From: Bacillota bacterium
Lineage (GTDB): Bacteria; Bacillota; Desulfitobacteriia; Desulfitobacteriales; JAJXUE01
Reading direction: 5' to 3'
Assembly: GCA_021783135.1 (NCBI GenBank)
Contig: JAJXUE010000008.1
Span: forward strand, 1-64,000
Length of the DNA stretch: 64,000 bases
Positions 14,425 through 28,493 of this stretch are shown piece after piece; the stretch's first letter is position 1; each line of letters starts with the position of its first letter. The notes below the pieces were generated by a model. That model saw only the letters and a program-made list of their open reading frames with translations. It ran no database searches and was not told where the DNA came from. Both the position numbers and the translations under genes were made by a program.

Positions 14425-14847
14425 TCAACCATCTTCGTCTACGTCTACGTCTTCTACCGAAAACTTGTGCTTTGGGTGTCCTGACCAATCACCGAATAAC
14501 CCTTGTTTACGAATATCTTCGATGTAGGGCATTAGTGCTGTCCAAGCAGCGAAAGGCATGTCCCGGCGAATTGTATTACAACGAACACAAGCAGGAAGAA
14601 CATTGTCCTTTGTATGGCCCTTGTCATTATCGATACGGTCAAGCGTCATTCTCGATGGGGTTTCATCACCACAATAAATACAACCGGGAGCAATCATTTC
14701 TTTGACAAATTGTTCGTCTAGGTCGTTTATCAAACCTTTTGAAGCGTCAGCAGCACGGCAGTTTCGGATTATCTGTCCTGGTAAATACACAGGATTATTT
14801 CGCCATTCTTTTCGCTGCTCTTTAAGCTGTTCAGCGGTCTTACTCAT
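14425..14847 (-). CDS. HNH endonuclease upstream of terminase
   Basis: CIYCGDETPSRMTLDRIDNDKGHTKDNVLPACVRCNTIRRDM; likely ATG at 14847 (MSKTAEQLKEQRKEWR). Confidence 0.88.
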   Translation of the reverse strand: MSKTAEQLKEQRKEWRNNPVYLPGQIIRNCRAADASKGLINDLDEQFVKEMIAPGCIYCGDETPSRMTLDRIDNDKGHTKDNVLPACVRCNTIRRDMPFAAWTALMPYIEDIRKQGLFGDWSGHPKHKFSVEDVDVDEDG

Positions 14848-14885: not shown

Positions 14886-14965
14886 TAAAAAAAAGACCGT
14901 CTAGCATCGGGTCTGGAGAACCCTTAACGTGGAGTAGCTAATTCCACGCTGCTTACGGTCTATCT
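14886..14965 (-). promoter_or_regulatory. Three-way-junction leader structure ending in a U-tract (attenuator-like) upstream of the HNH-terS-terL operon
   Basis: Minus-strand RNA: AGACCGU...[CGUGGA-auuagcuac-UCCACG]...[GGGU-ucuccag-ACCC]...ACGGUCUUUUUUUU. Confidence 0.6.
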
Positions 14966-14978
14966 CAAATATTTACCC

Positions 14979-15023
14979 CTCTAACAACATAGGCACTCTA
15001 CAAGCATGTTGGGGGGTAATTTT
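14979..15023 (+). repeat. Direct repeat copy 1: CTCTAACAAYATAGGCA-N16-GGGGGTARTTTT
   Basis: Same two blocks with identical 33-nt offset recur at 15297-15341. Confidence 0.75.
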
Positions 15024-15035
15024 TAAAATTTATTT

Positions 15036-15291
15036 TCTACGTTATAATAACGTTACTTACGTTTCTATACGTTATAAACGTTATTACTATTACAGAGACA
15101 TTAAAAGACGAACAGACGAAAATGGGAATGTTTAGGTAACGTTATTAACGCTAAGAATCGTTATTTGTGAGAAAAAAATGCTATCGCATTTCTTCCTCAT
15201 GGTTTTTTAAACCGTTTTAATTGTTTTATTAACGGCTAGGCTTAAACAATCTTATAATCGTTATGGACGTTTTTGACGTTATTAACGTTGA
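15036..15291. repeat. Helically phased ACGTT arrays (three clusters)
   Basis: ACGTT/ACGTA-type cores at 15039, 15050, 15059, 15069, 15078; 15139, 15148, 15158; 15258, 15267, 15276, 15285: spacing 9-11 bp inside clusters. Confidence 0.8.
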
Positions 15292-15296
15292 TGTGT

Positions 15297-15341
15297 CTCT
15301 AACAATATAGGCAAGTTAAAGAACCTAGTGGGGGTAGTTTT
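15297..15341 (+). repeat. Direct repeat copy 2: CTCTAACAAYATAGGCA-N16-GGGGGTARTTTT
   Basis: See copy 1 (14979-15023). Confidence 0.75.
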
Positions 15342-15498
15342 ACATTTGGTAATTTGAGGAGTCACATGGCTACGTGGCTTATAACGCATTAGTAGGATAA
15401 TGTGCAGTAAGGCAATAAATTTAATTCTCTCCTTTGTCAGAAGGGTATTTATTCCAAGAGGCCGAAGATAAATAAAAAGGAGATGGGGGGCTACTTGT

Positions 15499-15708
15499 AT
15501 GAATCCTATAAGTGTTAATTTTGGGTTGTTTGGTTTGATTTCTATTTTGAATGTTTTGCTCTGGATTTTGGGTTTTATTTGTTTAATTCAGCTTCTACGT
15601 TTTTTAATTAAAGGTATTAAAGCATTGGACATTTACATTGCTAAAAGCAAGTCAGACCTGGAAATGGAAGTAAAAACTACTCGTATTGATTCTGAAAAGC
15701 AAACCTAA
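15499..15708 (+). CDS. Small membrane protein (N-terminal TM, charged C-terminal tail)
   Basis: RBS aaaggagatgg; 69 aa, hydrophobic N-terminus. Confidence 0.65.
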   Translation: MNPISVNFGLFGLISILNVLLWILGFICLIQLLRFLIKGIKALDIYIAKSKSDLEMEVKTTRIDSEKQT

Positions 15709-19016: not shown

Positions 19017-19199
19017 ATGACAGCCTTTGCCCAAATAATTACTATTATTCCAGTTATACTTATACTTTTCTTTCTTATAAGCATCATAGATTTTATGAAA
19101 AAAAAGACCAAGAATGATGAACTTCTTATCAATAAGCTTGACCAGTTACTTGAAAGATTAACAGACAAAAAAAGTAATGAATATCCAAAAGAGCATTGA
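19017..19199 (+). CDS. Small membrane protein with coiled-coil tail
   Basis: RBS gggaggg; MTAFAQIITIIPVILILFFLISIIDFMKKKTKNDELLINKLDQLLERLTDKKSNEYPKEH. Confidence 0.7.
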   Translation: MTAFAQIITIIPVILILFFLISIIDFMKKKTKNDELLINKLDQLLERLTDKKSNEYPKEH

Positions 19200-19307
19200 C
19201 CTTTTGCTATACATGCTTCAAAGCAAATTATCCGATGTTAGGTACAAAAAAGCTTAAGCCCAGAAAAATTTCCATGTGCGAAAAGACTGAACGTTAATGT
19301 CATAAAC

Positions 19308-19755
19308 TGACGAAATTTTCCCCTGACCAAGCATATACGGCAAGTAGCATGGTTGTGTTCCTGCTCTAAGCCTTGGGGCTTCGTGCCGTAACACAACGGG
19401 AAAATTCGTTGACCAAACGGGCCGGGACACTCATATTTCGAAAATATATGTATTACTTACGTAGACATACACGATTAGGTACTTCATTGCTTCTAGGGTG
19501 GCATAGGGGAGGTAGAGGGACGGCAAAAGTCGTTTACGGGCGTAAGGGGCGTTTAGCACGGAAATATGCGTTATTGCTCGTCTATCTATTTTACACCAGG
19601 CGTATGCCTTGTGTGTCGTGCCCGTTTCTCGCGGTGGGGTGGCTCAAAAGGTTTATAAAACACAAAGGTTTGTTAAACGTGATATTTAAACAACCTTTAT
19701 TCAACCATTTTATGGTAGGAAGTAACGTTTTTTGACGTGCTGACTACCATTTTTT
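19308..19755 (+). ncRNA. Candidate structured phage noncoding RNA ending in an intrinsic terminator
   Basis: Nested stems ACGAA(A)TTTTCCC/GGGAAAATTCGT and GTTGTGTT/AACACAAC, apical AAGCC/GGCTT, possible pseudoknot ACGGCA/TGCCGT; hairpin 19664-19698; terminator ATGGTAG...CTACCAT-TTTTT 19712-19755. Confidence 0.5.
19712..19755 (+). terminator. Intrinsic terminator-like hairpin of the candidate ncRNA
   Basis: ATGGTAG (19712-19718) pairs CTACCAT (19744-19750), inner ACGT/ACGT, followed by a T-run. Confidence 0.6.
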
Positions 19756-19944
19756 GTATTGGAAAAATAAAGTAATGCCTACGAACATATGTTTTATGGG
19801 ATGTTTTTGCCCTTATACGTAGAGCCAAAATGTGGCAAATGTTATGATGTTTCCAAACGTTCAAATCGTCCATATATTTCCTTGCACGCAATCAACGAAT
19901 AATAACGTATAACAAACGTTCGTTCCGTATTTGTTCGTTGCAAT

Positions 19945-20066
19945 CTACGTTTATTCGTATTGTAACGTTTATTTGCTGAATGTGATCTTATTTGCTTATA
20001 ACGTTTATTGCTGTAAAGGATCTATTCGCTATATACAACCATTCGCTGCTTATACGTGTATTCGCT
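19945..20066 (+). repeat. Degenerate about 18-bp tandem (iteron-like) array, core TTATTYGCT
   Basis: ATTYG/ATTG cores at 19953, 19971, 19990, 20007, 20024, 20041, 20060 (17-19 bp spacing); three with AACGTTTATT. Confidence 0.65.
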
Positions 20067-20316
20067 ATTTATTTTGGCGGGTTAATGAAAGACCGGTTTT
20101 TCAAGTGGTATTTTCTATCCTTATATGGCATGAATTTTAGATACGACTATTTACATAGGCAAAACATTGGTAAAAATTGTGCAATTGACTAACAAAGTAG
20201 GCGGTGATACCATAAGGCCATGGACAAACACGAACGACAAACAGGAGGTAAACAAAACTGAATAGCGTTATAAATATTTAAAGAAACTAAATGACTAAAC
20301 AGGTGGAGGAAGAAAA

Positions 20317-21045
20317 ATGAAAAGCTATACTTTAATTGAATTGCAAGAGATTTCTACACGGGTTGAAGAAGGTAAAAGTTGTGTTTGTTCCAACCAAAAA
20401 ACGTATAAATCTCTGGATTTAACCTCCATTTGTCCTAAGCTACTGGCAGGAGATCCTTGTAAATACTGCTATGTTCAAACTAGTAGGGAAGAAGGGTTTA
20501 ACGCAAAAATCGTATATGGACGTATTACCTACAATGGCGAGATTTCCAGAATGAACCAAGCCACAATAACTAAGTTAAATGAATGTGGCGGTTTGAGAGT
20601 ATTTTCCTTCGCTGATTACTACTCTTGGATGGATGATGATCTTGAAAAAATTGTTGCAGACGCTAAAAAACGTGGTTTAAAGTTAAAGGCTATTACCAAA
20701 CAAGCCCAATTCGTTCATAAATTTTGGAAGGATTTTGATGTGATCCACGTATCAGTTGACAATATTGGCGATGGAATGGCCTGGGAAACAGCGAAAAACT
20801 TACGCGAGATGTATCCAACCGTATTAGTCCGATCTGTCATCACTAAGGACGAAGACATTCAAGCCTTGGCATGGACGGACATTTTAACACTAAATCATGG
20901 AAACAACGGCTTCAAAAATTACTCTAAGAAGAACAACGACCAATTGAGCCAAGTATTTCCGGGTAAAGTATGCTGCTCAACAGGAAAATGCCAAACCTGC
21001 AAAGTAAAATGTGGATTGACAAAAGTTGGTGATAAAAATATTTAA
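20317..21045 (+). CDS. Phage radical-SAM-like protein
   Basis: RBS ggaggaag; CPKLLAGDPCKYCYVQ (C-x8-C-x2-C) and C-terminal CCSTGKCQTCKVKCG cysteine cluster. Confidence 0.7.
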   Translation: MKSYTLIELQEISTRVEEGKSCVCSNQKTYKSLDLTSICPKLLAGDPCKYCYVQTSREEGFNAKIVYGRITYNGEISRMNQATITKLNECGGLRVFSFADYYSWMDDDLEKIVADAKKRGLKLKAITKQAQFVHKFWKDFDVIHVSVDNIGDGMAWETAKNLREMYPTVLVRSVITKDEDIQALAWTDILTLNHGNNGFKNYSKKNNDQLSQVFPGKVCCSTGKCQTCKVKCGLTKVGDKNI

Positions 21046-26585: not shown

Positions 26586-28088
26586 ATGTCTCATGACTAT
26601 GATATAAGGACTGTAGCCTTGTATCTGCGTAAATCACGGGGGCAGAACAATGAGGAAATTGACGATTTAGCACAACACAGGGCAGAACTAATAGCCATGT
26701 GTGAGGAGCGAGGATGGGCATACACCGAATACGCTGAAATAGGTACAGGCGATAAGATAAATGTCCGTCCTAAAATGCTGGAACTGCTGCAGGATGTTGA
26801 GCAACAAATGTATGACGCTGTTGTAGCAGTCCACTTCGACCGACTCAGCCGTGGTGACGAGTCTGACCAAGCTCGAATTAAGAAAACGTTTGCCATGACT
26901 GAAACATTATTTGTCACTATTACCAGGGTGTACGATTACAACAATGACCAAGATATTATGATGGCTGACTTTGAAGGAATGATGGCAAGGTTGGAATATA
27001 AGACCATTGCCAGGCGTTTTCGACAAGGTAAGGCTCGCCGAGCGAAGCAAGGATTTTGGTCGAACGGCACGCCACCCTTTCCCTACGTATTCGACCGTGA
27101 AACAGGTAAGGCCAAACCTGACGAAGCAAATCTGTTGGTTTATAGGCGAATGATCGATCTGTGCTTAAACGGTTACGCTGCTACGGATATAGCTTGGGAA
27201 TTGAATAAGGAAGGTATACCTAGCCCACGGGGTCAGTTGTGGAGTCCAGCGGTTGTAAGGCGGTTATTGATGGATGAAGTACATCTTGGACGCTTAGTAG
27301 TTGGCAAGAAACGCAAGCTGGTCGGAGCGGATGCAATTGTCCGTAAGCCTAAAGATGAGTGGATTGTTTATTATAACTGCCATCAGGCTGTTAAAACTGA
27401 ACAGGAGCACAACAAAATTCTTTTCTTAATACAGCGGCAAAAAGAAACGCCACCAGCAGCTAGAGCAGGTTCTAGCCAATTCAGTGGATTAATCAGATGT
27501 GGTATCTGTGGTCACACAATGCAGATTCAAAAGCGAAGTGACCGCCCGTCGGATCTTTTGAAAAGCTGTACACATCGTGACCATTTCGGCGTGCGTTGCC
27601 CAAACCTCGGGGGAGCCATAATTGACATAGCTATTTCGGTCAAAGAGGCAATCCTAGCCAAGCAAGAGCAATTGGAAGCGGCAATTCGAAGTGGTATTCA
27701 GTTGGAGGATATCCGAGTTATCTTGGAATTGTCAGAGCAGAAATTAGCCGAAATGAAACAGTATGATTCAATGCTTTCCAAGCTGGAAGATGCCTTCTTC
27801 GCTGAAAAGATAAGTGAAGAACGTTATATGTTAAAGAAGGCAGAGTACGAAACAAGAATTCATGCCCTGGAAGAAGAGTACAAAATCATTCAAAAACAAG
27901 CAGACAATACCCAAAATGCTAGAAACGAGGATATGCTGGATTCCGTCAAAAAGGTTCTTGCGGTTATTAATAGTAAAGACATTGAACCCAAAGATATCAA
28001 TCGGGCCTACAAAAGTATCATCCACTCAATTGAGTGGGAACGCGATGATTTTGACGACTGTGGAGCCATGAAGGTAAATTTTCTATAG
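26586..28088 (+). CDS. Large serine recombinase (prophage integrase)
   Basis: N-terminal resolvase domain with YLRKSRG catalytic Ser, DRLSRG; zinc ribbon CGICGHTMQ...CTHRDHFGVRCPN; coiled-coil. Confidence 0.95.
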   Translation: MSHDYDIRTVALYLRKSRGQNNEEIDDLAQHRAELIAMCEERGWAYTEYAEIGTGDKINVRPKMLELLQDVEQQMYDAVVAVHFDRLSRGDESDQARIKKTFAMTETLFVTITRVYDYNNDQDIMMADFEGMMARLEYKTIARRFRQGKARRAKQGFWSNGTPPFPYVFDRETGKAKPDEANLLVYRRMIDLCLNGYAATDIAWELNKEGIPSPRGQLWSPAVVRRLLMDEVHLGRLVVGKKRKLVGADAIVRKPKDEWIVYYNCHQAVKTEQEHNKILFLIQRQKETPPAARAGSSQFSGLIRCGICGHTMQIQKRSDRPSDLLKSCTHRDHFGVRCPNLGGAIIDIAISVKEAILAKQEQLEAAIRSGIQLEDIRVILELSEQKLAEMKQYDSMLSKLEDAFFAEKISEERYMLKKAEYETRIHALEEEYKIIQKQADNTQNARNEDMLDSVKKVLAVINSKDIEPKDINRAYKSIIHSIEWERDDFDDCGAMKVNFL

Positions 28089-28139
28089 GGGTCTAACACG
28101 TCAAAAGGACTTTAGGAGCCTTGCCGGTCACGGTATCGT

Positions 28140-28493
28140 TTGGAAACACCGGATGGAAGCGTGATCATCCCGGTTAGCCGCGTGGCGTGTGGCTTCGCAG
28201 CCGGGGGGTCAGAATTTGATACCGGGGCAGCGTCGCCTAAAGACCAAAATGATACCGGTCTTCCCTTTGGCGGGGGGAGCGGGGCCGGTGTGTCAGTGCA
28301 ACCAGTAGGTTTTTTGGTAGTAGGCAATGATCAAGTGCGGTTATTGCCGGTCGACAGCAATGTAGTTTTCGATCGGGTAATCGATGCTGTTCCCGGTATT
28401 ATTGACAAAGTTACGCAGATGCTAAAAAAAGATGGTCATGCCGAAAAGTCTTGTCAAGACAAACCAACGGTCAAATTAGAACCAGAAGATTAG
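28140..28493 (+). pseudogene. ytfJ: 3' part of sporulation protein YtfJ/GerW, interrupted by the prophage
   Basis: ETPDGSVIIPVSRVACGFAAGGSEFDTGAA...LPFGGGSGAGVSVQPVGFLVV matches YtfJ; the conserved N-terminus is missing; in-frame TAG at 28113-28115. Confidence 0.9.

Follow-up and report, generated by a model that had tools for sequence, protein, structure and literature searches.

In a prophage of a spore-forming bacterium, about 450 nt at positions 19308-19755 of the 64-kb stretch of DNA analysed here (the window) encode no recognisable protein and resemble a gene for an RNA that is closed by a stop signal of its own. Phage head genes that are read leftward are located at about 10.5-13.7 kb. 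The element is preceded on the same strand by a 60-aa ORF (19017-19199), which stops just upstream of it, and is followed by a gene at 20317-21045 and then by RadC. The product of gene 20317-21045 has no Pfam or PHROGs match. It shares 51% identity with a hypothetical protein encoded by Moorella phage MTATph1, where about 165 nt alone lie between this relative and the upstream gene. From its cysteines only, judged by eye, we would call the product radical-SAM-like. No relative of the gene was found in the order (1 of 73 genomes, which is its own) or in viral contigs. The G+C content is 0.43-0.48 in the three 250-nt windows covering most of the element and is lower, 0.29-0.36, in the flanking windows.

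Further features were noted in the surroundings. An imperfect tandem repeat (period 35, 2.1 copies) is present at 19963-20035. A second noncoding region, 14908-15498, lies between leftward phage genes and a rightward ORF at 15499. Other genomes of the order also contain the leader and the small membrane ORF found at 15499 (MNPISVNFGLFG..., 15378-15708). The noncoding stretch before this ORF is matched in 7 of 82 genomes besides the window's own, with four of the matches falling within one genome; at least one match (L310) looked unrelated. At the rightward prophage end a serine recombinase (26586-28088) lies directly before a Spore_YtfJ domain (region 26586-28493), the frame of which starts at 28140, at the domain's first residues. 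Since the recombinase abuts the start of this frame, the prophage may interrupt a sporulation gene; other sporulation genes are known to be interrupted by prophages, as described in excerpts of PMC5595907 and PMC4191935.

The features of the element and of its related noncoding region are as follows.
15026-15299, no strand: densest AACGTTA array of the window, with runs at 9-11 bp spacing, before the ORF at 15499
19205-19213, plus strand: extended −10-like sequence TGCTATACA, weak, picked by eye from the sequence only
19309-19410, plus strand: 5' hairpin domain, with outer stem, inner stem and apical hairpin
19309-19322/19398-19410, plus strand: outer stem, helix probabilities 0.80 and 0.99
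19337-19342 and 19384-19389, plus strand: candidate pseudoknot partners ACGGCA and TGCCGT, in a-b-a'-b' order
19352-19359/19390-19397, plus strand: inner stem GTTGTGTT/AACACAAC, probability 0.96 for 19355-19359/19390-19394
19368-19372/19377-19381, plus strand: apical hairpin AAGCC/GGCTT, probability 0.97
19388-19609, plus strand: core conserved in Desulfosporosinus metallidurans, with identity at 138 of the 225 columns aligned
19410-19426, plus strand: 17-nt block TGACCAAACGGGCCGGG, identical in the homolog and the longest identical run (p 0.013 against column shuffles)
19415-19422/19620-19627 (span 19415-19627), plus strand: closing helix AAACGGGC/GCCCGTTT, pair probability 0.91, enclosing the multibranched core
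19510-19591, plus strand: middle domain, helix 19510-19526/19574-19591 with inner hairpins, probabilities 0.86-0.93
19712-19755, plus strand: intrinsic terminator, a hairpin and then six T, −18.2 kcal/mol, z −5.3
19720-20010, no strand: AACGTTA-like cluster (sites at 19720, 19855, 19900, 19960 and 19996), second densest in the window, before the gene at 20317

The earlier note on this DNA had stated that no credible coding sequence exists here, and this was upheld. The longest frame across the core, 120 codons from a TTG (19373-19735), has no Pfam match and no phage match, and gave one plasmid match at E 0.7. In the D. metallidurans homolog the same frame contains five stops (two TAG and three TAA). 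The differences between window and homolog fall on the three codon positions as 23/72, 26/73 and 31/73, so that no coding signature is seen. A third-codon bias in 19388-19450 disappears across the full core; on this ground, and because of the five stops, the protein-coding reading was rejected.

The long stem, the inner stem, the AAGCC/GGCTT hairpin and the crossing order of ACGGCA and TGCCGT that had been described for the 5' part were all found in the sequence, within a few bases of where the earlier note had placed them. The 104-nt 5' domain (19308-19411) is more stable than its dinucleotide shuffles (z −3.3), with 6.25% of 128 background windows of 104 nt having z below −2. Its reverse strand gives z −3.7, and this equally good folding is the pattern expected of palindromic DNA. 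The longest perfect helix of the domain, 9 bp, was reached by 0.65% of 2000 shuffles, and a 6-bp helix crossing an 8-bp helix by 0.8% of 1000. Two sampled pairs of the candidate pseudoknot had a probability of 0.003 in a model that does not include pseudoknots, and the pseudoknot arm is absent from the sole homolog. The middle domain also folds stably (z −3.25 for 19505-19595). The further hairpin proposed at 19664-19698 is not favoured, with z −0.27 for 19645-19705 and pair probabilities of 0.1-0.3. When the full 461-nt stretch was folded, its stability was ordinary (z −1.23, 10 of 100 shuffles equally good), and the hairpins on the opposite strand were of about equal strength. Such strand symmetry would suit the chief rival to an RNA gene, namely a DNA element that takes up all 1.1 kb of the noncoding stretch and carries phased sites for a phage or host protein (an operator, partition or replication region), the palindromes being features of the DNA.

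The terminator that had been claimed for 19712-19755 was borne out as a signal: it ranks 5 of 295 among the hairpin-plus-T candidates on both strands of the window, and a stricter scan listed no terminator. Such a signal fits a transcript, which argues against the DNA element. Upstream, a promoter scan detected nothing at 19205-19213, nor between the ORF 19017-19199 and the element. The stretch might be a long untranslated 3' tail to the operon that ends with the ORF at 19199, or the leader of the next operon, with a terminator and no separate RNA; the position of the 60-aa ORF, just upstream and on the same strand with no promoter found between, agrees with this. However, the core is conserved in D. 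metallidurans without the genes that neighbour the element in the window, and it seems improbable that an untranslated tail or leader accounts for the region.

The homolog came from a search of 73 genomes of the order, which gave one match besides the window's own genome: 54 nt at 81% identity (BLAST, E 1.9e-7), with a second piece of 39 nt at 82%, on contig NZ_MLBF01000040.1 of D. metallidurans. An absence of homologs had been named in the earlier note as evidence against its proposal; one homolog is now known. Identities are clustered along the alignment (p 0.016 against column shuffling). The homologous stretch is 273 nt long and is bounded on both sides by insertion-sequence ends, which recur elsewhere in related genomes. 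It is therefore a remnant, and may be decaying. It has lost the arm for the outer 5' stem as well as that for the 3' strand of the closing helix, the latter falling past the insertion-sequence end; a conserved outer 5' stem was rejected because the upstream arm is insertion-sequence DNA.

With two sequences only, 34 of 79 countable pairs of the window's predicted structure are kept in the homolog. Two-sided changes, again from two sequences, amount to 9 pairs, against 1-5 in slid controls; 1 of 500 shuffles gave as many. The helices kept best are the inner arm of the 5' domain and the middle one, and in the homolog other bases again form the inner 5' stem (GUUGUG/CAUAAC) and an apical hairpin. 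The first 46 nt of the homolog, folded alone, share the outer six pairs with the window but form another apical stem, and 17% of shuffles do equally well. The separate stems of the homolog are no better than shuffles (p 0.14 and 0.17), and its preferred fold has other partners in the middle and 3' parts, including a different pairing of the 3' strand of the middle domain. A decayed or functionless stretch with chance structure would have very few homologs, the sole one here being a remnant, and an ordinary whole-length fold. Against this, conservation is non-uniform (p 0.013-0.016), the terminator is strong and the motif clusters described below are common to two regions; we regard this explanation as unlikely.

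Wider searches added no further homolog. When 82 genomes of the class were searched with the window DNA, two were hit, D. metallidurans and the genome of the window itself, and phage and plasmid records held no homolog of the element. Model R1, run over 398 genomes of the phylum, returned the window and five weak matches (E 0.0095-0.05 per genome), which were taken as chance. A match in another genome (L003 in G002) was rejected since it lies inside an ABC-transporter gene. In searches with short sequences, chance matches were called by reading the flanks, or by BLAST together with a motif check. All 11 matches of GACCAAACGGGCCGGG in viral contigs were chance, and GCGTTATNGCTCGTC plus CAGGCGTATG gave none there. 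The block TGACCAAACGGGCCGGG occurred in 66 stretches of genome contigs, and among the matches listed the D. metallidurans contig alone was real. Chance likewise covered the matches of GCTCGTCT plus CAGGCGTATG (8 of 8) and those of the conserved block paired with GCTCGTC (14 of 14) or with its helix partner (9 of 9). For CCAAACGGGCCGGG at least 120 stretches were obtained; among the matches listed, 73 loci were new, and model R1 matched none of these. Relatives of the terminase within the class are distant, at 29-38% identity in 8 of 82 genomes besides the window's own, and one lies on a viral contig of 4.4 kb; these are uninformative for the element because they are too distant, or because the contig is too short to hold the region.

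It had been suggested that size and context resemble ROOL, GOLLD or OMEGA/HEARO-type RNAs. This likeness is unsupported: Rfam gave no match, tRNA genes are absent from the window, and the neighbouring proteins scanned include no OMEGA-type nuclease. Rfam cmscan at gathering thresholds gave no match in the whole window. At E up to 10, 19150-20350 matched two microRNA models alone, both far below threshold and on the opposite strand, and none of ROOL, GOLLD, HEARO, raiA and OLE, the families named for an Infernal check. The element is thus not a detectable RNA of these five families. The D. metallidurans homolog had no credible match either, and Rfam membership was rejected for both. OMEGA and HEARO RNAs are structured RNAs of mobile DNA, as was proposed for the element; it differs from them in having no Rfam match and no TnpB/IscB-type gene among the 20 neighbouring proteins (Pfam scan). 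ROOL, a large noncoding RNA of prophages and phages whose function is unknown, has a studied example of 659 nt, and many GOLLD RNAs, also of prophages or phages and of unknown function, exceed 800 nt (PMC12286853, in the excerpts available). The element would share with ROOL the character of a large prophage noncoding RNA; it is shorter, however, and lacks an Rfam match, and the window contains 0 tRNA genes whereas ROOL is often, not always, near tRNA islands. From GOLLD, with which it would share a prophage origin, it differs by its length and by having neither an Rfam match nor a tRNA island. In the abstracts and excerpts retrieved on Desulfosporosinus and noncoding RNA, no paper was apparently about such an element.

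The heptamer AACGTTA is over-represented in two noncoding regions, that of the element and 14908-15498, which hold the two densest clusters of the window. The two regions contain it 6 and 4 times, and the remaining 62.3 kb 7 times; that is, 10 times in 1.7 kb of these two regions together against 7 elsewhere, which favours the DNA element. In addition, CG dinucleotides in 19500-20080 show a 9.9-nt period (p 0.001 against random positions). When all 580-nt windows of the 64 kb were ranked by CG-period score, those starting at 14581 and 19421 came first and second, the former covering most of 14908-15498; this too speaks for a DNA element. A weight matrix trained on 14908-15498 alone had its densest clusters at 15026 and 19701. 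With it, 19758-20316 has 4 sites of score >=9 where 0.20 would be expected (p 5e-5), and the D. metallidurans remnant is enriched as well, with 4 sites of score >=8 against 0.19 expected (p 5e-5), two of which overlap as one palindromic site. In the RNA-like part, 19308-19710, there is in contrast 1 site of score >=9 (0.14 expected) and 1 of score >=8 (0.27 expected, p 0.23). The CG period over 19351-19628 alone has p 0.14, and the conserved 17-nt GC-rich block differs from the motif, so that these three results tell against a DNA element there. The p values of period and motif are descriptive, since both patterns were found by looking. Tandem ACGTTA-short gap-ACGTT occurs genome-wide 6 times, 4 of them in region 14908-15498 and 2 elsewhere, against 14 times for the reversed control; because the control is more frequent, the tandem pattern alone is not special, and its clustering is.

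Phages and plasmids have phased operator or iteron arrays, in which short sites recur about once per helical turn. In the window, sites repeated with such a spacing, as in a phased DNA-binding array, are found mainly at 15026-15299 and 19720-20010. The window thus resembles the known arrays in this spacing; it differs in the few sites of the RNA-like part and in that its binding protein is putative. As the density of the motif peaks behind the RNA-like part and before the next gene, part of the noncoding region of the element is probably a protein-binding array. Among the matches listed for AACGTTAT with operator and phage, the literature abstracts showed nothing apparently relevant. Taken together, a DNA element occupying the whole stretch seems rather improbable to us, although it is the strongest of the alternatives.

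We prefer, with a confidence somewhat short of even, to read the region as an orphan gene for a structured RNA with a regulatory array downstream of it. The direct basis is formed by the sequence features, the terminator signal, the one homolog and the motif clusters; transcription, the fold, action in trans and the regulator are what we infer from them. An RNA gene is supported by the lack of a conserved ORF and of codon-position bias, the identical 17-nt block and uneven conservation of the homolog, the raised G+C content, the stable 5' and middle domains, the terminator in line on the plus strand, the 9 two-sided changes and the inner 5' stem and apical hairpin that form again in the homolog. 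Against it stand the 34 of 79 pairs kept, the differing fold of the homolog and its stems no better than shuffles, the state of this homolog as a possibly decaying remnant, the lack of homologs in phage and plasmid records, the ordinary whole-length stability, the strand-symmetric hairpins and the failure to find a promoter. The earlier interpretation holds as to a noncoding, locally structured stretch with a terminator and a homolog; the likeness to ROOL, GOLLD or HEARO is not supported, and a phased DNA-level AACGTTA component, absent from the earlier note, explains part of the region.

According to the RNA-gene reading, the plus strand from about 19220-19308 to 19755 would form a gene of the prophage whose product is a stable, structured noncoding RNA of ~0.45-0.53 kb, laid out as a 5' hairpin domain, a multibranched core closed by the AAACGGGC/GCCCGTTT helix and an intrinsic terminator. 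The product of this accessory gene would act in trans as a folded RNA and would most likely bind a protein or a ribosome-type partner. The downstream AACGTTA cluster, together with the denser cluster at 15026-15299, would be the binding region for a putative regulator of the rightward operons (15499 and 20317). More tentatively, and with real doubt, the element may represent a novel class of structured RNAs that mobile DNA carries in the Desulfosporosinus order and that resembles none of the Rfam families. Its gene would lie beside, or contain, a phased operator array shared within the prophage, such that one regulator would time the RNA and its neighbours.

Large phage RNAs of unknown function are few, and each new family provides comparative leverage. 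The homolog reported here is the first for this element and opens the region to testing, and the AACGTTA array common to both noncoding regions is a concrete handle on prophage regulation in poorly studied spore formers.
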